Shown here: positions 2,808 through 40,693 of the stretch, in pieces
How positions within the stretch are numbered: the first letter of the stretch is position 1
Layout of the letters: each line of letters begins with the position of its first letter
DNA from: Clostridiales bacterium
Lineage (GTDB): Bacteria > Bacillota > Clostridia > Lachnospirales > JAISYE01
NCBI GenBank assembly: GCA_031297485.1
Contig: JAISYE010000067.1
Coordinates: 1 to 40,693, forward strand
Reading direction: 5' to 3'
Length of the DNA: 40,693 bases
Notes under the pieces: model-generated
Seen by the model: only the letters and a program-made list of their open reading frames with translations
Database searches by the model: none
Told to the model about the DNA's origin: nothing
Translations under genes and position numbers: made by a program

Positions 2808-2841
2808 TCGGAACGCGCCGCCCTTGTTTGTCGGGTTCTTT
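2808..2841 (-). repeat. Shortened copy of the R1 hairpin element in the aminotransferase leader
   Basis: Read on the minus strand this is AAGAACCCGACAAACAAGG followed by GCGGCGCG and TTCCGA: the two ends of the R1 element (compare 11572-11688) with the two central GCGAAGC hairpins missing. It lies between the promoter -10 (2857) and the start codon (2734), so it is transcribed in the 5' leader. A further inverted repeat (GGGACC...GGTCCC type) lies at about 2765-2794. Confidence 0.6.
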
Positions 2842-11457: not shown

Positions 11458-11571
11458 GTAAAGTTCCTCTCTGTCAAAAACATACCGGTGACGGCTGAAT
11501 TTTGATAAAACCACGAATGAACACAAATAAACACGAATATAAAAAACAATCGTGTCCATTCATGTCCATTA

Positions 11572-11688
11572 AAGAACCCGGCGAACAAGGGCGGCGCGAA
11601 GCGCCGTTTTCGCGAAGCGAAAATTCCGAAAAGAACCCGGCGAACAAGGGCGGCGCGAAGCGCCGTTTTCGCGAAGCGAAAATTCCGA
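11572..11688. repeat. Tandem duplication of the 59-bp R1 hairpin element
   Basis: Two identical 59-bp copies (11572-11630 and 11631-11688, the last base differing). Each reads AAGAACCCGGCGAACAAGG, then GGCGC-GAA-GCGCC, then TTTTCGC-GAA-GCGAAAA, then TTCCGA. Both inner hairpins are perfect and share the GCGAAGC heptamer, known as an exceptionally stable DNA mini-hairpin. The copies separate the LCP gene from the ABC exporter genes. Other copies or fragments occur at 2808, 20817, 22093, 23810 and inside a CDS at 34925. Confidence 0.9.
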
Positions 11689-19663: not shown

Positions 19664-21011
19664 TGGCTTCACCTCCCTTTGGCGCCCGCTCGTTGCACTT
19701 AAGGTGCCTTTCCCACATGTTAAGCAGTTTGCTGACCACAAACGTAATCATCCAATAGATAATCGCGAGCGTGACGTACATCTCGAAGTAGCGGTAATCC
19801 ATCTGACTCAGCAGCTGGCCCTTACGTGTCATTTCCACGACGGACACGGTAAAAGCAAGGCTTGTGCCCTTAATCATACTGATATACGCGTTGCCGAGGC
19901 TGGGCAGCGCGATAACCAGCGACTCCGGTATAATTATGCGCCGCAAGGTCTGCCACGTACTCATGCCGATACTGTGCGCGGCTTCAATCTGCCCTTTGTC
20001 AACCGCTTGAATTGCCGCGCGGATGGCTTCCGACGAGTACGCCGCGTCGTTTAAGGCAAGGGCCACAAGCGCGAAGGTAATACGAGGGATTTCGTTAATA
20101 AACGCCGTGTCGGCGCCGAGAGCCTTAAGCGCCATCGGTATGCCGTACAGCGTGGCGTAAAGCTGAATAACAATCGGCGTGCCGCGCGTAAACGAAACAT
20201 ATGCCGACGCGATATGGCGCGCCACCGGCACGCGCTTCACCTTAACAATCGCCACAATAAACGCCACGAGAAGGCTGGCGAACATCGAAACCGTAGCGAT
20301 ATACAGCGTAATCGGCAGATATGCGAGTATAGGGGGAATGCGTTCGAAAATCAGCAGCGCATCAAACATCGGCGAACTTTTGTAGCGCAGGCCGGCGCTT
20401 TCGTTTAACAAAATCGTGCCGAGCCGCTGCGCCGAAAAGGTCCAACGCGCGTCCCCAAGCGCTTCAAAATCGGCTTTTGCCTGAAGCGCGGTTTTATACT
20501 TTTCATCGTCCGGACTGCCGTCCTTTTGGGTGAATCCGGCGGGGTCCGGCTCCGTAAACGTGAATTGCACTATACTGTCCGTTTTGACGTATGTACCCGG
20601 AACGTTGACGAAGCCGTATTTGTCGTCGGTGTGAATATAGAACCCTGTGCCGGTGAACTTAACGTACTCGCTTTTCCCTTCAAACTCACGGGTCGAGCTG
20701 TTGTACACCTGCAAATAGTAGTCGCCCGACAGCCGGTCTGCTAACCCGCAGGCCGACAGGGACAGCGCGGCGGCAATCATTACGAGCGCCGCCCGAATCC
20801 AACCGCGGGGGCGGCCGGAATTTTCGCCGCCTAAGGGTGATTTGTCCGTTGCCGCGCCCAAGAGACAACCCGCCGTTAGCTTGTTCGCCGGGTTCTTTAT
20901 TGTGCCCGCCCGAAAATTTTGAAACCTGCCGGGTCCCGGGCAGGTTTCAACGCTGGTTCCGCGCGGCGGGACTTCTGACGCGAAACCTTTTGCTGCTTTA
21001 ATTGCGCTCAT
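19629..21011 (-). CDS. Amino-acid ABC permease with an N-terminal lipobox-bearing extra domain
   Basis: The 460-residue product is about twice the usual length for this permease family. The C-terminal ~230 residues are a standard polar-amino-acid permease with the EAA loop EAAHSIGMSTWQTLRRIIIPE-type motif. Before it is a hydrophobic segment ending in a lipobox (ALSLSAC) and a ~130-residue beta-rich domain (GTGFYIHTDD..., VPGTYVKTDSIVQFTFTE) resembling small lipoprotein folds. The first ~75 residues are odd: residues 38-65 are encoded by a dispersed repeat and residues ~21-31 by a perfect hairpin. The ATG at 21011 follows the binding-protein stop by 21 bp with a weak GGAG; no better start was found, although a signal peptide this far from the N-terminus is abnormal. 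Confidence 0.82.
   Translation of the reverse strand: MSAIKAAKGFASEVPPRGTSVETCPGPGRFQNFRAGTIKNPANKLTAGCLLGAATDKSPLGGENSGRPRGWIRAALVMIAAALSLSACGLADRLSGDYYLQVYNSSTREFEGKSEYVKFTGTGFYIHTDDKYGFVNVPGTYVKTDSIVQFTFTEPDPAGFTQKDGSPDDEKYKTALQAKADFEALGDARWTFSAQRLGTILLNESAGLRYKSSPMFDALLIFERIPPILAYLPITLYIATVSMFASLLVAFIVAIVKVKRVPVARHIASAYVSFTRGTPIVIQLYATLYGIPMALKALGADTAFINEIPRITFALVALALNDAAYSSEAIRAAIQAVDKGQIEAAHSIGMSTWQTLRRIIIPESLVIALPSLGNAYISMIKGTSLAFTVSVVEMTRKGQLLSQMDYRYFEMYVTLAIIYWMITFVVSKLLNMWERHLKCNERAPKGGEASASAIGSAKMV
20817..20896 (-). repeat. R1-type composite repeat inside the permease reading frame
   Basis: Read on the minus strand: GAACCCGGCGAACAAG (R1 left end), a degenerate 23-nt unit (CTAACGGCGGG...), CGCGG, a second degenerate unit (CAACGGACAAATCACCC...) and GGCGAAAATTCC (R1 right end). 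The same arrangement is intergenic at 22093-22186 and 23810-23925. Here it is read through as residues about 38-65 of the permease. Confidence 0.75.
20919..20950 (-). promoter_or_regulatory. Perfect 12-bp hairpin early in the permease frame
   Basis: TTGAAACCTGCC (20919-20930) and GGCAGGTTTCAA (20939-20950) are exact complements with an 8-nt loop, followed on the minus strand by AATTTT. A stem-loop between binding-protein and permease genes commonly stabilises or terminates the upstream mRNA so that more binding protein is made; this may be one, lying just inside the annotated permease start. Confidence 0.55.
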
Positions 21012-22092: not shown

Positions 22093-22186
22093 CAAAGAAC
22101 CCTGCGGACAAGCTAACGTTGGGTTGTCCTTTAGGCGCGAAGCGCCGTAATAGCTTCGCGAAAACTCCAAATTCCGGTATGGTAAA
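22093..22186. repeat. R1-type hairpin repeat between the C-S lyase and binding-protein genes
   Basis: Starts AAAGAACCCTGCGGACAAG, then a degenerate 23-nt unit (CTAACGTTGGGTTGTCC...), GGCGC-GAA-GCGCC (a perfect hairpin carrying GCGAAGC), GCTTCGCGAA and AATTCCGG. Same order of modules as at 11572, with an inserted 23-nt unit. Confidence 0.7.
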
Positions 22187-23514: not shown

Positions 23515-23925
23515 TAGTTGTCCGTCGGTTCTTTAATGAGCGCGCGCGAAGCGCAAGAAGGGGTCTGGGGATGAAATCCCCAGCGGGGTTTGGGGCCAAC
23601 GAACAAACCATCGTTAGACCCCTAACGGTGAACTGTCCGTTGGTTTTAAGGTTTTGACCTTTCCCAAGCCTTAAATTCGCGCCAATGGGGTCAACCCGCC
23701 CGTTTGCCACTAACGGTGATTACGAATATGCTCGCGCAGGTTTCGCCTATAGGCATAGCAGGGGAGGGTGAGGCTTGAAAAATGAGTTTGGAATTTTCGC
23801 CTCAAAGAGCGCGGCGAAAACGGCCTAACGGTAATTTGCCCGTTGCCGCGCCCAACGGACAACCCTAACGGTGAACTGTCCGTCGGGTTTTTCGCCAGGT
23901 TCTTTAGTGTGATAGTCACTGAGAT
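23515..23925. repeat. Composite dispersed repeat (R2 plus R1 mosaics) before the response-regulator 3' end
   Basis: The first half (23515-23720) is the reverse-orientation R2 mosaic: GCGCGCGAAGCGC, AAGAAGGGGTCTGGGG, CCCCAGCGGGG and 23-nt units at 23596-23618 and 23621-23643. The second half (about 23810-23925) is an R1-type composite with units at 23824-23846 and 23864-23886, between GGAATTTTCGCC and GGTTCTTTA ends. The part at 23735-23800 resembles 35330-35375 (CGCCTATAGGCATAGCAGG versus CGCCTATAGGTATAGTAGG), i.e. the end of the rhamnosidase gene, suggesting a copied or captured flank. Together with the promoter at 23353 this explains the 23321-23945 gap. Confidence 0.8.
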
Positions 23926-32563: not shown

Positions 32564-35383
32564 ATGTACAACAGATTGCTCGACGTATTAGAAAATAAAA
32601 GTAAAAACTATATTCTGCCGTTTTTTTGGCAACACGGCGAAGACGAAAAGATTTTGCGCGAATATATGCAAGTTATTCACAACGCCAATATAGGCGCGGT
32701 GTGCGTCGAGAGCCGCCCTCATCCGGATTTTTGCGGTGAAAAATGGTGGACGGATATGGACGCCATTTTGGACGAGGCCGCACGGCTGAATATGAAAGTG
32801 TGGATACTTGACGATTCGCACTTTCCGACAGGCTATGCGAACGGGTCAATGGAAAACGTCCCGAAAGAGCTGCGTCACCAATATTTGGACTATAATACGC
32901 TTAACGTATGCGGTCCCAAGCCCGCCGTGGAAATTGACGTAAACGCATTAATCCACCCAAGACCAGCGCCGCCTTGGCTTCCGCCCCCGCCGCCTAAGCG
33001 CGTGTTTAACGACGACAAACTCTTTAAGGTTTTGGCGGCTGAATATGTTGGGGATAAACTTGGCGAAAGCATTGATTTAACAGAGTTTGCGGCGGACGGA
33101 CGGCTTGTGTGGAATGTCCCCAAAGGTTATTGGCGCATATTTATCGTTTATCTTACGCGCGACGCGAACGGGCGTAATGATTACATTAACTTTTTGGACG
33201 AAAGATCTTGCCGTGTACTTATAGACGCGGTGTACGAAACGCATTACGAGCGTTATAAAAACCTTTTCGGCAGCGTTATAGCCGGATTTTTCAGCGACGA
33301 ACCACCTATAGGCAACAGCCCGGGATATACGCGCAACAACCGTATAGGAGACTTAATGCCTTTGCCCTGGTCTGCCGCCATGCCTGACAAATTTTCGGAA
33401 GAATATGGCGCGGGCTGGAAGAAGCAGGTTATTTACTTGTGGGAACAAGGTGTTGACGAAGAGGAAACAGCGCGTATAAGAAGCGCGTATATGCACAGCG
33501 TAAGTAAACTTGTTGAAAATTGCTTTTCCGGGCAAATAGGGCGCTGGTGTGAGGAACACGGCGTTCTGTATATCGGGCATATGCTTGAAGACTGCGATGC
33601 GAACGCCGACTTGGGGCCGTCTATGGGGCATTTTTTCCGCGGGCTTAAAGGCCAGCATATGGCGGGAATAGACAACATAGGCGGGCAGGTGGTTATTGGC
33701 GGTCAAAACTCGCCGCGTTTTCCCGCGCAGGGCGGTTTTGATGTTGCGGGATTTTACCATTATCTGTTGGGGCGTTTAGGCGCGTCAATGGCGGCTATTG
33801 ACGCTAATAAGCAAGGGCGCTGTTTGTGTGAAAACTTTGGCGCGTATGGATGGCAAACCGGTGTTTCAACCATGAAGTACCTAACCGACCATTTTCTTGT
33901 ACGCGGCGTAAATAGGTATGTTCCTCATGCCTTTTCGCCGAAAAAGTTCCCCGACCCAGACTGCCCCCCGCATTTTTACGCGCGCGGCGAAAACCCTCAA
34001 TATAAAGCGTTCGCCGCCCTTATGGCTTACACGAACCGGGTTTGCCACTTAATCGACGGCGGTAAGCCTATAACGCCTGCCGCTGTGCTTTACCACGGCG
34101 AAAGCCGTTGGGCGGGCGCTTATCAAAGCAATATAGAAGTGTGCAAAATTTTGACGAGAAATCAAATAGGCTTCACGGTCATACCTGCCGATGTATTTGG
34201 CCGGACTTCCAGTGAATATGGCACCGCTTTATCAGCCGATGGCAAGACTTTAACTATAAACGGCGTGGCTTTTTCGGCGTTGATTATTTCGGAATGTGAT
34301 TACATGCCATACCAAGCGGCTTTGTTTGCCGAACGCGCTTTATCTTGCGGGTTCCCTCTTTTCTTCACAGGGAAATTACCCAAAGGTGTCTGCGACGCGG
34401 AAAAAGCCGAAAGCAAGCGTTTAATGGCTTTACTCGGGGCCCGCGCCGTCCCCGTCCCTGCGGTTGATATACCCAACGCGCTTGCGCCATATGTTAAGCG
34501 CGACGTAATTATAAATGGCGGCAGTTTTCAGAACTTAACGGCATACCGCTATAAAAATACTGAAAATGGCGCGCCGGAGGTTCCGGACTCGCTAGTATAT
34601 TTGTTATTGAACGAAGACCCGTGCGAAACATTCGGGGGCGGGACTTCCGGTGCGGCGCAAATCGCGCTTGAGGGCGCGGCGGAAATGGAAGTTTACAAAT
34701 ACGACGCGTGGAATAATCAGCTTTTTGAAGTGCCAAGCAAAACCGTAAGTTCCGGCTGCGGCAGATGGATTGACATTACGCTTGAGCCGCTTGAAATGGC
34801 CATTTTCGTTTGTCAGGCTGAAAAGATTCCCTCAAGGCGGCAAAGTAAAGTCCGCGAAAGCCTTGAACTTGACGGTTTTACGGTTTCTTGCGCGGCGGCC
34901 GGCAAGTATCCGTCATTCGACAGAGAACCCGGCGAACAAGGGCGGCGTGAAGCGCCGTTTTCGCGAAGCGCCGTTTTCGCGAAGCGAAAATTCCGAAGAG
35001 TTGGCGTGCCCGACTTTATAAATGGCATGGGACTGATACTTAAAGATTTTACCGGTTTTATACGTTACGAAACAACGTTTGAAGCGCAACCCGGTTTTAT
35101 TGTGGATGATAGATATAAAAACGATGTATTTTTATGCCTTGAACAAGTATACGACACCGCCGAAATCTATGTGAACGGTAAAAGTGTTGGGAGCATTGTA
35201 TGTAAGCCGTACAAAATTAACATAGGCGGCTACTTGAATAATGGAACCAATTCTATTATAATAGAGGTAGCCACGACGCTTGAACGTAAAGTGATTGCCA
35301 TGGGCCTTGACGTTGCGTGTATGAATATACCCGCGCCGGTTTCGCCTATAGGTATAGTAGGGAGGGTGAGACTTGAAAAATGA
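32564..35383 (+). CDS. GH106-like alpha-L-rhamnosidase family glycoside hydrolase
   Basis: A 939-residue protein with no signal peptide. The N-terminal half resembles the TIM-barrel of GH106-type rhamnosidases: FFWQHGEDEKILREY, GAVCVESRPHPDF, MKVWILDDSHFPTGYANG, the acidic GFFSDEPPIG, and later IGHMLED and a Gly/Gln-rich GGQNSPRFPAQGGFD region. The C-terminus is a jelly-roll, galactose-binding-like module (YETTFEA...DTAEIYVNGKSVG...NIGGYLNNGTNSI). Residues ~786-813 (REPGEQGRREAPFSRSAVF...) are not family sequence: they are the R1 dispersed repeat read in frame, between the catalytic part and the last beta-domain. Last of six co-oriented genes; with the lpl-type importer it points to rhamnose-containing pectic oligosaccharides. 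Confidence 0.82.
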   Translation: MYNRLLDVLENKSKNYILPFFWQHGEDEKILREYMQVIHNANIGAVCVESRPHPDFCGEKWWTDMDAILDEAARLNMKVWILDDSHFPTGYANGSMENVPKELRHQYLDYNTLNVCGPKPAVEIDVNALIHPRPAPPWLPPPPPKRVFNDDKLFKVLAAEYVGDKLGESIDLTEFAADGRLVWNVPKGYWRIFIVYLTRDANGRNDYINFLDERSCRVLIDAVYETHYERYKNLFGSVIAGFFSDEPPIGNSPGYTRNNRIGDLMPLPWSAAMPDKFSEEYGAGWKKQVIYLWEQGVDEEETARIRSAYMHSVSKLVENCFSGQIGRWCEEHGVLYIGHMLEDCDANADLGPSMGHFFRGLKGQHMAGIDNIGGQVVIGGQNSPRFPAQGGFDVAGFYHYLLGRLGASMAAIDANKQGRCLCENFGAYGWQTGVSTMKYLTDHFLVRGVNRYVPHAFSPKKFPDPDCPPHFYARGENPQYKAFAALMAYTNRVCHLIDGGKPITPAAVLYHGESRWAGAYQSNIEVCKILTRNQIGFTVIPADVFGRTSSEYGTALSADGKTLTINGVAFSALIISECDYMPYQAALFAERALSCGFPLFFTGKLPKGVCDAEKAESKRLMALLGARAVPVPAVDIPNALAPYVKRDVIINGGSFQNLTAYRYKNTENGAPEVPDSLVYLLLNEDPCETFGGGTSGAAQIALEGAAEMEVYKYDAWNNQLFEVPSKTVSSGCGRWIDITLEPLEMAIFVCQAEKIPSRRQSKVRESLELDGFTVSCAAAGKYPSFDREPGEQGRREAPFSRSAVFAKRKFRRVGVPDFINGMGLILKDFTGFIRYETTFEAQPGFIVDDRYKNDVFLCLEQVYDTAEIYVNGKSVGSIVCKPYKINIGGYLNNGTNSIIIEVATTLERKVIAMGLDVACMNIPAPVSPIGIVGRVRLEK
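34925..34996 (+). repeat. R1 hairpin element inserted in frame within the rhamnosidase gene
   Basis: GAACCCGGCGAACAAGGGCG, then GGCGT-GAA-GCGCC, then TTTTCGCGAAGC and a repeat of GCCGTTTTCGCGAAGC, then GAAAATTCCGA. Compared with the 56-bp core at 11572, this copy has an extra 16-bp internal duplication, giving 72 bp = 24 codons, so the frame is kept. No stop codon occurs in the used frame. Confidence 0.88.
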
Positions 35384-35387
35384 GCCC

Positions 35388-35532
35388 GGAATTTTCGCTT
35401 TGCGAAAACGCGGCCCGCAGAGGTTGGTCCGTCTTCGCCGCAACGGAGAACCTAACGGTGAATTGTCCGTTGCGGTGAATTGTCCGTTGCGGTGAATTGT
35501 CCGTTGGTTTTGTCCGTCGGGTTCTTGGGCGT
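35388..35532. repeat. R1-type composite with a 17-bp triplication between rhamnosidase and MATE genes
   Basis: Begins GGAATTTTCGC-TTT-GCGAAAA (perfect hairpin) and ends GTCGGGTTCTTGGG. It holds a 23-nt unit at 35451-35473, part of which is repeated as GGTGAATTGTCCGTTGC at 35457, 35474 and 35491 (17-bp period, last copy one base different). Confidence 0.8.
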
Positions 35533-37400: not shown

Positions 37401-40400
37401 ATGAAGGTCGCAAAATATTGTTGGGCCTTGCTGCTTGTTGTGTTAACGGTGGCTGATTTGTCCACGGGCGTATTTGCCAAGGCGATGAATAAGAAGTATA
37501 CCCGCGAGGTGCGGGTCCAAAGCGCGATACAGCTGCTGGACGCGGCCGCGCGCTACGAGGATGGCGAGGCGATAGTCCTGGCGGGGGACATCAGCCTGAC
37601 GCAGCCGCTGGTATTTATGGGCAGGGGCACAATCACGCTGGATTTAAACGGCTTTAAGCTGGATGTGGTTACAGCGGACAGGGACGCGGTTTCCCTTGAA
37701 AATGCCGTGGCCGGCCTTGTAATAACGGACCGGCAGGACGGTATGGGCAAACTTACGGCCCAATGCGCCTACGCGGGGGAGACACCCAACCCCACGGGCA
37801 GCGCGGGCATTCGCGTGCTGGACCGCGGCCAGTCCCTTGTAATTGAGAATTGCGGCGTCGAAGCCACAGGCGGTAATTTCGGCGCGGGCATTGGCGGCAG
37901 CCAATACGCCGCCGGCGCGGTTACGATAAGAAGCGGCGTCGTAACAGCCAAGGGCGGAATGTACGGCGCCGGACTCGGCGGAGGATATCAGCAGCCTGGC
38001 GGCGACATTTTAATAGAGGACGGGACCATTACGGCTGTTGGCGGCGATTACGGCGCGGGCATAGGAACCGGCGGCTTTGACGGCTTAATCCGGCCTCAAA
38101 GCACGGCGGTGACTATAACCGGCGGCCGCGTAATGGCTAATGGCGGCGCACAGGCCGCGGGTATCGGCGGCGGGAAACTTCAAAACCGCTGCGCTGTAAA
38201 TATCTCCGGCGGAAACGTAAGCGCTCTGGGCGGCGCAGGCGGCGCGGGCATCGGAAGCGGCGGCGTCAGTGCCCTTGGTCTCCAATATAACGGCAAACTG
38301 CAAGGCGCGGTAACCATATCCGGCGGCAACGTCAGGGCGGAAGGCGGCAGTTTTGGCGCTGGTATAGGGACCGGCGAGGGCCGCGGTGATTTATCAGCCG
38401 AAGCGCTGCTGGAAGGCCGCGCCATTAAGCTGGAAGGCGGCAATGTCCTGGCCCGGGGAGGAAGCGGCGGCGCGGGTGTTGGCGGCGGCGCGTACCTTTC
38501 CGGCGGCGATATAGAGATTTGTGATACGGTGATGCTGGAAGCTTTCGGCGGCGAGCTGGCGGCAGGTATCGGCGGCGGCAAGGGCGCGGAATCCGGCAAG
38601 TGCGTTATGCTGGCTGGCGGGAAAATTTACGCCGCCGGCGGCGATTTTGCGGCTGGTATAGGTTCCGGCGCTTTTTCCATGGAACACTTGGAGCCCACGG
38701 ACTCCTATTTTCAAGGGCGGAAAAATATTCAAATAGCAGGCGGCAGCGTTGAGGCTGTGGCGGGTTCGGACGCGGCGGCAATAGGCGGCGGTTCGGGCGG
38801 TTCGGGAGCGCGGCTATTTGTGTCCGGCGGCGCGGTTATAAACGCCGTAAGCGAATGGGAAACCACAATAGGCGCGGGCAGGTATTCCTATGACAACGGT
38901 TCTATGACAATCACCGGCGGCAACATCCGCGCAAACAACCGGGTAGGCGCCGCGCCGGTGGATTTGCGCGGCAAGCCGGTTTTCCGCGGCCAAATAGGCG
39001 TTTACTCCTCGGAGGACAATTCCCCTGTGGCGGACGCGCCGGTGGATATCCTGCTGGACGACGAAAACCTGCTGTCTGTGCGCACAAGCGCGGACGGCAA
39101 GGCTGTCATATACCTGCCCTTGGACGCCGCCCCTATAGATGTGCGGGCCGGCGCGGACAGGGCGCGCTTTGACGGGGGTGATTTCAAATTTACCGAGGAC
39201 GGCGAGACCGCGCTTGTATTCCATGTGCAGAACAGTTCGCCGCTTAAAATACTGTCCGCGGAAGCCACGCACTACATTGGCGGGCGTTACGACACCATAC
39301 CGCTGGACTACAGCGGCGGCGGCGGAAACGTGACATTTTCGGTTCTTGACAACCAGCAGGATATAAGAATAGACGCCGCGTCCGGAGTGCTCACCATACC
39401 GGTAAATGTCAAACCAGGTGAATACACCTTAATGGTAAACGCCTTTGACGACGGCCAGCTGGCGGACAGCGCGCCCTTTGCGCTTACGGTAAAGGAGAAG
39501 CTGCTGGAGATTGTGCCGGACAAACCGTCATATACTATAGCGCCGGGGGCGAGCCAAGTTCTGCGGGTTTCGACTTTGCCTCATAACGCGGACGTGGCGC
39601 GGCTGGACTGGAAAGTAACCGCGGGCGACGCGGACTTCGCCCTAACCGACTATTACAGTATTACCGGCGAGAAGGCCGCCGTGTTTTCCGCGCAAACGCC
39701 GGGCGAGTACGCCGTAACAGTGGCGGCCAAGGACGCGGACGCCAACACGGCGCAGGAGACCATACTTGTAACAGTCGCGGACGAGACGGAGCGACTCCCG
39801 CGGGAACAAGCGGCGCCGGTATTCGCCGGCGGCAAGGGGGCCGGGGAAATATCCGCGTGGAATGTAAACAGGCTGGACGCGGCGACAGCCAGCATCGGGT
39901 TTTATTCTGATATAGACGGTTCCTATGTTTACGAGCTTGTAAACGAAGGTCAGAACGCGAGCGGGAATTTTACAGAAGGCGGAATTGTGACAGCGGGCCA
40001 TAACAGCGTAACGCTGGGCGGTCTGCCGGAATCGGGCGCGTACAGTTACAAAGTGAGGATTATAAACGCGGATGGCGCGGAGAGCGTGACAAGGGAAATT
40101 TACGTGCCTGCCTATCAGGCGGGGGACATAAGCCCGCCGCTCTTGTCCGAACTTACGGCGGCCCGCTTATCGCCCACGGCGGCGGCGCTGAGCTTTAAGG
40201 CTGACGAGGAAGGCGAGCTGGTATACCTGACCGGCGGGGAAGGCGCGGCGGCTAAGACGCGCATAGTGCCCGGGCCAAACCGCGTGACTATAGGGTCTCT
40301 TGACACGGAAGCGCCCTTGCGGATATACGCCGCCGCGCTGGACACCCTGGGCAATTATACTGAAACAATAGAGGTGGAAATACCCGGCTACAGCCATAAG

Positions 40401-40693
40401 AATCTGACAGTGCTGGCGCCCTCCGGCCTATGGACCCGCAGGGAGGGTTTAAACACCGCTGTGGTTGGTTTTTCCTCTGAAATAGAAGGCGAGCTTCTAT
40501 ATAGGATAGCGCCGAGCCGCAGTCTGGGGCTGGCGCCGGTTCTTTCGGAAGCGGAGGAATGGGTGGAGCCGGGCATTACGGCGGCGGCCTCGGCCAACGA
40601 ATTTACCATAGAAAACCTGCCGGACGGCGGCGAATACACTGTGAGCATAGCGGTACGCGACCCGGTTTCACGGAACGTGACTCCCCCGTCCGC
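37401..40693 (+). CDS. Very large secreted protein with GAGIGGG beta-helix repeats and cadherin/Ig-like domains (3' end outside window)
   Basis: ATG at 37401, preceded by AAAAAAGGAG; the frame stays open to the window end (at least 1,097 residues, no stop). A signal peptide (MKVAKYCWALLLVVLTVADL...VFA) is followed by a parallel-beta-helix-like region. From about residue 155 to 500 there are ten or eleven copies of a 25-40-residue unit ending in GAGIGGG variants (GAGLGGG, GAGIGTG, AAGIGGG, GAGIGSG, GAGVGGG), preceded by ITISGGNVxAxGG-type strands. Then come several ~90-residue beta domains, one cadherin/PKD-like (VTFSVLDNQQDIRIDAASG). It is GC- and Gly/Ala-rich compared with its neighbours. 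Probably a surface adhesin or matrix protein. Confidence 0.85.
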   Translation, partial: MKVAKYCWALLLVVLTVADLSTGVFAKAMNKKYTREVRVQSAIQLLDAAARYEDGEAIVLAGDISLTQPLVFMGRGTITLDLNGFKLDVVTADRDAVSLENAVAGLVITDRQDGMGKLTAQCAYAGETPNPTGSAGIRVLDRGQSLVIENCGVEATGGNFGAGIGGSQYAAGAVTIRSGVVTAKGGMYGAGLGGGYQQPGGDILIEDGTITAVGGDYGAGIGTGGFDGLIRPQSTAVTITGGRVMANGGAQAAGIGGGKLQNRCAVNISGGNVSALGGAGGAGIGSGGVSALGLQYNGKLQGAVTISGGNVRAEGGSFGAGIGTGEGRGDLSAEALLEGRAIKLEGGNVLARGGSGGAGVGGGAYLSGGDIEICDTVMLEAFGGELAAGIGGGKGAESGKCVMLAGGKIYAAGGDFAAGIGSGAFSMEHLEPTDSYFQGRKNIQIAGGSVEAVAGSDAAAIGGGSGGSGARLFVSGGAVINAVSEWETTIGAGRYSYDNGSMTITGGNIRANNRVGAAPVDLRGKPVFRGQIGVYSSEDNSPVADAPVDILLDDENLLSVRTSADGKAVIYLPLDAAPIDVRAGADRARFDGGDFKFTEDGETALVFHVQNSSPLKILSAEATHYIGGRYDTIPLDYSGGGGNVTFSVLDNQQDIRIDAASGVLTIPVNVKPGEYTLMVNAFDDGQLADSAPFALTVKEKLLEIVPDKPSYTIAPGASQVLRVSTLPHNADVARLDWKVTAGDADFALTDYYSITGEKAAVFSAQTPGEYAVTVAAKDADANTAQETILVTVADETERLPREQAAPVFAGGKGAGEISAWNVNRLDAATASIGFYSDIDGSYVYELVNEGQNASGNFTEGGIVTAGHNSVTLGGLPESGAYSYKVRIINADGAESVTREIYVPAYQAGDISPPLLSELTAARLSPTAAALSFKADEEGELVYLTGGEGAAAKTRIVPGPNRVTIGSLDTEAPLRIYAAALDTLGNYTETIEVEIPGYSHKNLTVLAPSGLWTRREGLNTAVVGFSSEIEGELLYRIAPSRSLGLAPVLSEAEEWVEPGITAAASANEFTIENLPDGGEYTVSIAVRDPVSRNVTPPS

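Follow-up and report, generated by a model that had tools for sequence, protein, structure and literature searches.

How does a dispersed palindromic repeat come to lie within a glycoside hydrolase gene that remains open from end to end? The gene that raises this question occupies positions 32564 to 35383 (plus strand) of a 40,693-nt contig from a Clostridiales bacterium, the whole of which is referred to here as the window, and it encodes a GH106-like alpha-L-rhamnosidase of 939 amino acids. Its identification as a rhamnosidase of family GH106 held in part, as the product resembled Pfam GH106 (E = 6e-6) with a score of 25.4 bits, under the cut-off of 29 for full membership, and residues 827 to 911 matched the NCBIfam rhamnoside jelly-roll domain (40.9 bits). 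Fifteen homologues from Clostridia were 43 to 53% identical to it in their best segment. We consider it very likely that the repeat, R1, is a small non-autonomous mobile element whose surviving copies within genes are in frame, and that the frame of the GH106-like gene was kept by a duplication within the element.

The original prediction placed a 72-bp copy of R1 in frame in the rhamnosidase coding sequence and explained its length by a 56-bp standard core carrying an internal 16-bp duplication. The sequence is as described, with GAACCC...TTCCGA at 34925-34996 (72 nt) in frame and reading (R)EPGEQGRREAPFSRSAVFAKRKFR. The same motif pair delimits 56 nt in the standard core, for example in two identical intergenic units repeated in tandem with a period of 59 nt (11571-11688, plus strand), which have an exact 23-mer in common with the GH106 copy. 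The duplication is direct, 34947-34962 and 34963-34978 being identical at 15 of 16 positions, and lies between GCGAAGCG repeats on the plus strand; its arithmetic is also right. Only the count of 24 codons had to be revised: the net insertion relative to the closest homologues amounts to 25 codons (75 nt), because the mobile unit has three more bases at its 5' end (AAA/AGA). The unit in the GH106-like gene thus extends from 34922 to 34996 on the plus strand (AGAGAACCC...TTCCGA; in full AGAGAACCCGGCGAACAAGGGCGGCGTGAAGCGCCGTTTTCGCGAAGCGCCGTTTTCGCGAAGCGAAAATTCCGA) and equals one 59-nt repeat unit plus the 16-nt duplication. Compared with the tandem unit of 11571-11688, its first 47 nt were 98% identical and its last 36 nt 100% identical. 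It opens with an unpaired constant handle, A(A/G)AGAACCCGRCGAACAAGGGCG (34922-34944), nearly invariant in 23 copies from several genera, followed by hairpin 1 (CGGCGT-GAA-GCGCCG, 34943-34957) and by hairpin 2 (TTTTCGC ... GCGAAAA, 34958-34990), the loop of which is widened by the duplication. A unit of 59 nt would shift the frame of the GH106-like gene, while 75 nt keeps it. Since the simple R1 element already contains GCGAAGCG twice, spaced 16 nt, one slippage step yields exactly a 16-nt duplication, and a single step between these repeats fits what is seen in the GH106 copy and presumably produced it, either before or after insertion into the gene. The duplicated form was present in none of the other R1 loci examined.

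A gap at residues ~786-813 had been proposed as a check in GH106 homologues, and the closest homologues do lack the segment. Seven alignment rows, comprising the closest Clostridia homologues and a paralogue from the same genome (L062), counted 16 residues at the place of 41 in the window protein, which is thus longer by a net 25 residues or exactly 75 nt. More distant GH106-like homologues carried unrelated linkers of 10 to 36 residues at the same place, indicating that the place tolerates insertions and making the GH106 site, taken alone, weaker evidence than the RtcB or kinase genes described below. The segment had also been placed at a domain boundary, where a further loop would be tolerated. 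In agreement, an AlphaFold2 model built from a 16-sequence alignment (mean pLDDT 74.7) fell below a pLDDT of 50 precisely at residues 788-812, between strands 773-778 and 831-840 and just ahead of the C-terminal beta-sandwich, the low confidence being partly expected for a segment that no homologue covers. The 25-residue insert is predicted to form a loop, probably disordered, before this beta-sandwich, and the enzyme appears to tolerate it. With the host as the only genome of its family in the collection, neither a transposition event nor an empty site was observed at the nucleotide level.

The host genome (3.53 Mb, 299 contigs, 90.7% complete) contains about 110 copies of R1. The 23-mer GAACCCGGCGAACAAGGGCGGCG had 32 matches in the genome with up to three mismatches, compared with none for the reversed pattern, and a 16-mer had 122 when two mismatches were allowed, compared with seven. 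With a profile of R1, 111 matches were found in 1.33 Mb of the genome and none in the reversed sequence. Within the window, a 140-nt copy that encloses three nested repeats of the CTAACGGTGAATTGTCCGTTG type lies just 3' of the GH106-like gene (35387-35526, minus strand). Further intergenic copies were found at 20816-20897 (minus strand, with a nested repeat), 22095-22168 (plus strand, diverged) and 23790-23904 (minus strand, with nested repeats), and the 5' half of R1 only at 2810-2840 (minus strand).

In copies from the host and from other genera alike, two hairpins are flanked by the handle GAACCCGACGAACAAGGGCG on one side and by the tail TTCCG on the other; the handle can also be written AAAGAACCCGACGAACAAGGGCG, and the simplest element measures ~59 nt and ends in TTCCGA. 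The stems of both hairpins vary with compensation, hairpin 1 occurring as CGGCGC-GAA-GCGCCG, CGCGC-GCA-GCGCG or CGAC-TTA-GTCG and hairpin 2 as TTTTCGC-GAA-GCGAAAA, TTATTCC-GTA-GGAATAA or TTTTCAC-GTA-GTGAAAA. By pair counts, stem positions were paired in 94% of cases, and 28 cells had changed on both sides, compared with 11 in shuffles, none of 500 of which reached 28; slid registers gave far lower values. Tandem copies repeat a constant unit of 59, 69, 78, 84 or 57 nt, and since the tandem unit equals the net insertion length in the GH106-like and RtcB genes, we took the unit to be AAAGAACCC...TTCCGA. No general target-site duplication was observed among 85 pairs of R1 flanks; the AGAG at both 34922-34925 and 34997-35000 was considered as one for the GH106 copy and set aside, as it does not extend across copies. 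By inspection, the two ends are not complementary, and there is no terminal inverted repeat. A signature of the target site was a C four bases upstream of the unit (position -4), present in 71 of 83 copies where about 25% would be expected, and in 20 of 23 copies from other genera. The element's own end, TTCCGA, has a C at the corresponding place, which could explain insertion in tandem.

Strong covarying hairpins, a GC stem followed by TTTT, and 31 intergenic copies whose two neighbouring genes both run in the direction of the element would also suit a functional RNA or DNA element, such as a terminator, an mRNA stabiliser or an RNase site, that is selected in place, genes included. We regard this explanation as unlikely, though it fares best among the alternatives, because the neighbouring genes run against the element in 20 copies, copies within coding sequences are in both orientations and R1 has no match in Rfam. 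Covariation can also reflect a mobility enzyme that recognises folded single-stranded DNA. A mobile element is the reading that we prefer, and both the copy number and the distribution of insertion sites point to mobility.

A search for other R1 copies within coding sequences had been suggested, and 15 such elements were found. Using a gene call based on codon usage, with internal copies defined as those at least 75 nt from both gene ends, 17 R1 matches (the 15 elements) were internal to codon-supported CDSs, 14 were near gene ends and 79 were intergenic. Only 31 of the 111 matches were thus within CDSs although coding density is ~80%, so the coding copies look like tolerated survivors. Genes are strongly avoided by R1, in keeping with purifying selection acting on a mobile element. 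Internal copies were in both orientations and, counting those at gene ends, used all six frames, adding 19 to 63 residues to the proteins. The affected products include DapF (L122), RtcB (L210), SbcD (L202), a uridine-kinase-like protein (L183), a MiaB-type radical SAM protein (L200), a PMT-like membrane protein with two copies (L154), a nuclease of the PD-(D/E)XK transposase family (L115), an AHSA1-domain protein (L114), a glycoside phosphorylase (L108) and an M16 peptidase with R1 near its N-terminus (L118). One of the 15 (L127) opens a tandem pair of units at a C-terminus. Two more cases, an rlmN-like gene (L181) and a transposase-like ORF (L180), were missed by the gene call and recognised by reading.

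Several of these insertions stand out against homologues. Where 29 of 29 homologues from other genomes of the order have 12 residues, the uridine-kinase-like protein has 31 (+19 aa), and RtcB has 43 where 20 of 21 homologues have 20 (+23 aa, exactly 69 nt). DapF has ~30 (29-30) residues more than the solved structures 2otn and 9mro between the same anchors, and SbcD ~32 more than 7dog. In the rlmN-like product, the Pfam RlmN N-terminal domain was matched only from position 22, immediately past the insert. Inspection of same-strand neighbours revealed no gene split out of frame by R1; as the CDS set was built from open reading frames, this absence of frame-shifted copies counts only in part as independent evidence. 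The same ORF calling biases a trend that goes in the expected direction, with lengths that are multiples of three in 12 of 17 internal matches compared with 39 of 79 intergenic ones, the window copy having been mis-measured as 59 in this count.

The persistence of insertions in conserved genes (dapF, rtcB, the rlmN-like gene, sbcD) might suggest that in-gene copies are domesticated coding modules whose peptide is useful to the host protein. We judge this very unlikely: the copies have no peptide in common and use all six frames, and CDSs are depleted of them relative to coding density. An element optimised for coding can likewise be discarded, as its stop-free frames are no commoner than in dinucleotide shuffles (4.47 vs 4.26 open frames). 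An assembly artefact, with repeats wrongly joined in 299 contigs of which many are short, is scarcely credible, given that ordinary short reads should cover units of 57 to 105 nt from end to end, that many genes retain frame and homology on either side of the insert and that similar in-frame copies are present in other genomes. Least credible of all, the GH106 segment could be an ordinary lineage-specific linker, in a naturally variable place, whose likeness to R1 is due to chance or to a composition in common, a notion already refuted by its nucleotide identity to dispersed copies, by the absence of profile matches in the reversed genome sequence and by the presence of R1 in many unrelated proteins in different frames.

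For R1 as a mobile element, we propose that it inserts cleanly and duplicates no target, in most cases 3' of a site that carries a C four bases upstream, and that it would move as DNA, probably in the form of a folded single strand, by means of an enzyme supplied in trans. Most copies landing in genes would be lost. Those that survive would be located in loops or near termini, with lengths divisible by three and free of stops, and would simply be translated. In the GH106-like gene, a 16-nt slippage would have brought the element to 75 nt, leaving the gene open with a loop of 25 residues. Transposition of the IS200/IS605 type proceeds through single strands, with subterminal hairpins, no target duplication and a preferred short sequence in the 5' flank. 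R1 resembles elements mobilised in this way in its lack of a target-site duplication and its fixed short 5' flank (C at -4), but differs in that no Y1 transposase (PF01797) was found in the 90.7%-complete host genome or in five of six other carriers, which are incomplete assemblies. On this search of incomplete assemblies, the Y1 transposase was set aside as the mobiliser of R1.

Among 295 genomes of the same order, clear R1 elements were found in the host and in six others, which belong to two further families. Two of these six, from two other genera, also have in-frame copies. One copy lies in frame in an apparent tyrosine (site-specific) recombinase (L236, 435-523), and in the other genus a tandem pair of 57-nt units is located in a long ORF (L248, 4930-5041). 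A class-wide search with a covariance model gave matches in six genomes; those inspected outside the host had no handle and were taken as chance, and no further carrier was convincing.

In-frame insertion of palindromic repeats had been noted as known for Rickettsia, and this background is broader than stated. Rickettsia palindromic elements (RPEs) are inserted in frame in Rickettsia ORFs (Ogata et al. 2000, as described in PMC2229807, PMC10969869 and PMC3767692), and the product of an RPE-bearing guanylate kinase gene was found to be both translated and active (PMC2229807, PMC10969869). Repeats of the REP, ERIC and Correia types have also been found in ORFs (PMC3733652, PMC2229807). As far as RPEs are described there, R1 is like them in being a many-copy palindromic repeat that lies in frame in unrelated conserved genes and leaves the gene intact. 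By the same descriptions, RPEs are roughly 84 to 192 nt long and belong to intracellular alphaproteobacteria, whereas R1 has an unpaired constant handle, two hairpins, a 59-nt unit and nested variants, and is found in Clostridia. Its host is not of the Rickettsia or Wolbachia kind, as the records with GH106-like homologues in the genome collection are from Clostridia, Lachnospiraceae and Bacillota.

REPs with GTAG or CGTC tags are found in ORFs in several species, many of them in DNA-repair genes, and the phyla listed for them do not include Firmicutes (PMC3733652). R1 is like REPs as a short hairpin repeat that is mainly intergenic, tandem or grouped, occasionally within ORFs and compensated in its stems (PMC3733652). 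REPs, however, carry a terminal GTAG or CGTC tag beside one short hairpin, whereas R1 ends in AAAGAACCC and TTCCGA, neither of which is such a tag; a GACG (CGTC on the other strand) does occur inside the R1 handle, several nucleotides from hairpin 1 and not at the end. Furthermore, GTAG REPs accompany RAYT (Y1) transposases, none of which was found in the R1 host. ERIC and Correia (107 bp) elements can also have ORFs fused in frame (Delihas 2008, PMC2229807) and are, like R1, small and non-autonomous, but they are MITEs with terminal inverted repeats and, for several, target duplications, and R1 has neither. Lacking REP tags, MITE terminal repeats and target-site duplications, R1 is filed as a separate family of a known kind, which works like RPEs, compared here by description, and like intragenic REPs.

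The original prediction knew of no such element in Clostridia, and we found none in the literature searched, most subscription papers being beyond reach. With R1, selfish hairpins that colonise genes in frame, as described in Rickettsia and in REP-rich bacteria of other phyla, are extended to Clostridia. R1 also provides about fifteen natural before-and-after pairs of enzymes for testing how proteins tolerate loop insertions. Annotation pipelines may misread the inserts as divergent proteins. The C at -4 and the covarying hairpins offer a concrete handle on the mobiliser, a question that R1 shares with CGTC REPs and, to our knowledge, with RPEs. Possible rather than probable, in our opinion, is a wider reading in which R1 would be the first family to be described in a new class, namely mobile double-hairpin elements of Clostridia that insert 3' of a C-A-N-Y-like site and leave no target duplication, the route probably being a folded single strand and an enzyme other than a known Y1 transposase, that spread between families of one order and that rewrite conserved proteins in frame, with internal slippage mending the frame.

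Many R1 copies have other small repeats nested in their hairpins. Inside the 140-nt copy, at 35450-35511, another repeat (CTAACGGTGAATTGTCCGTTGG type) stands three times in tandem. The CCTAACGGTGAACTGTCCGTTGG repeat, also present in the window at 1347-1457 and 23620-23890, had 161 matches with up to four mismatches in 1.33 Mb and none in the reversed sequence; 35 were nested in R1 copies, and only three free copies were inside CDSs, one of them in a GH1-like gene (L217, 10341-10363). Conversely, six 46-nt copies of R1 are frozen in a dispersed repeat of ~115 nt (..CGCGCACTCATTA[R1]AGGAAAATGTATTC..; L137, L139, L143, L144, L147 and L148). Their shared flanks were considered as a parent transposon, and were found to be this other repeat with R1 inside it instead. 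A subfamily of 85 nt (GAACCCGAAAGAAGTCGGGCGGCGCG...; L127 8394-8567, L146 3133-3217 and 5258-5342, L151 8963-9047), of which two compared copies were 97% identical along 94 nt, extends a transketolase-type protein and an FAD-oxidase-like protein at their C-termini. Finally, a long open frame runs from 37401 to 40691, at the contig end of the window, and contains glycine-rich imperfect repeats of ~87 to 114 nt.
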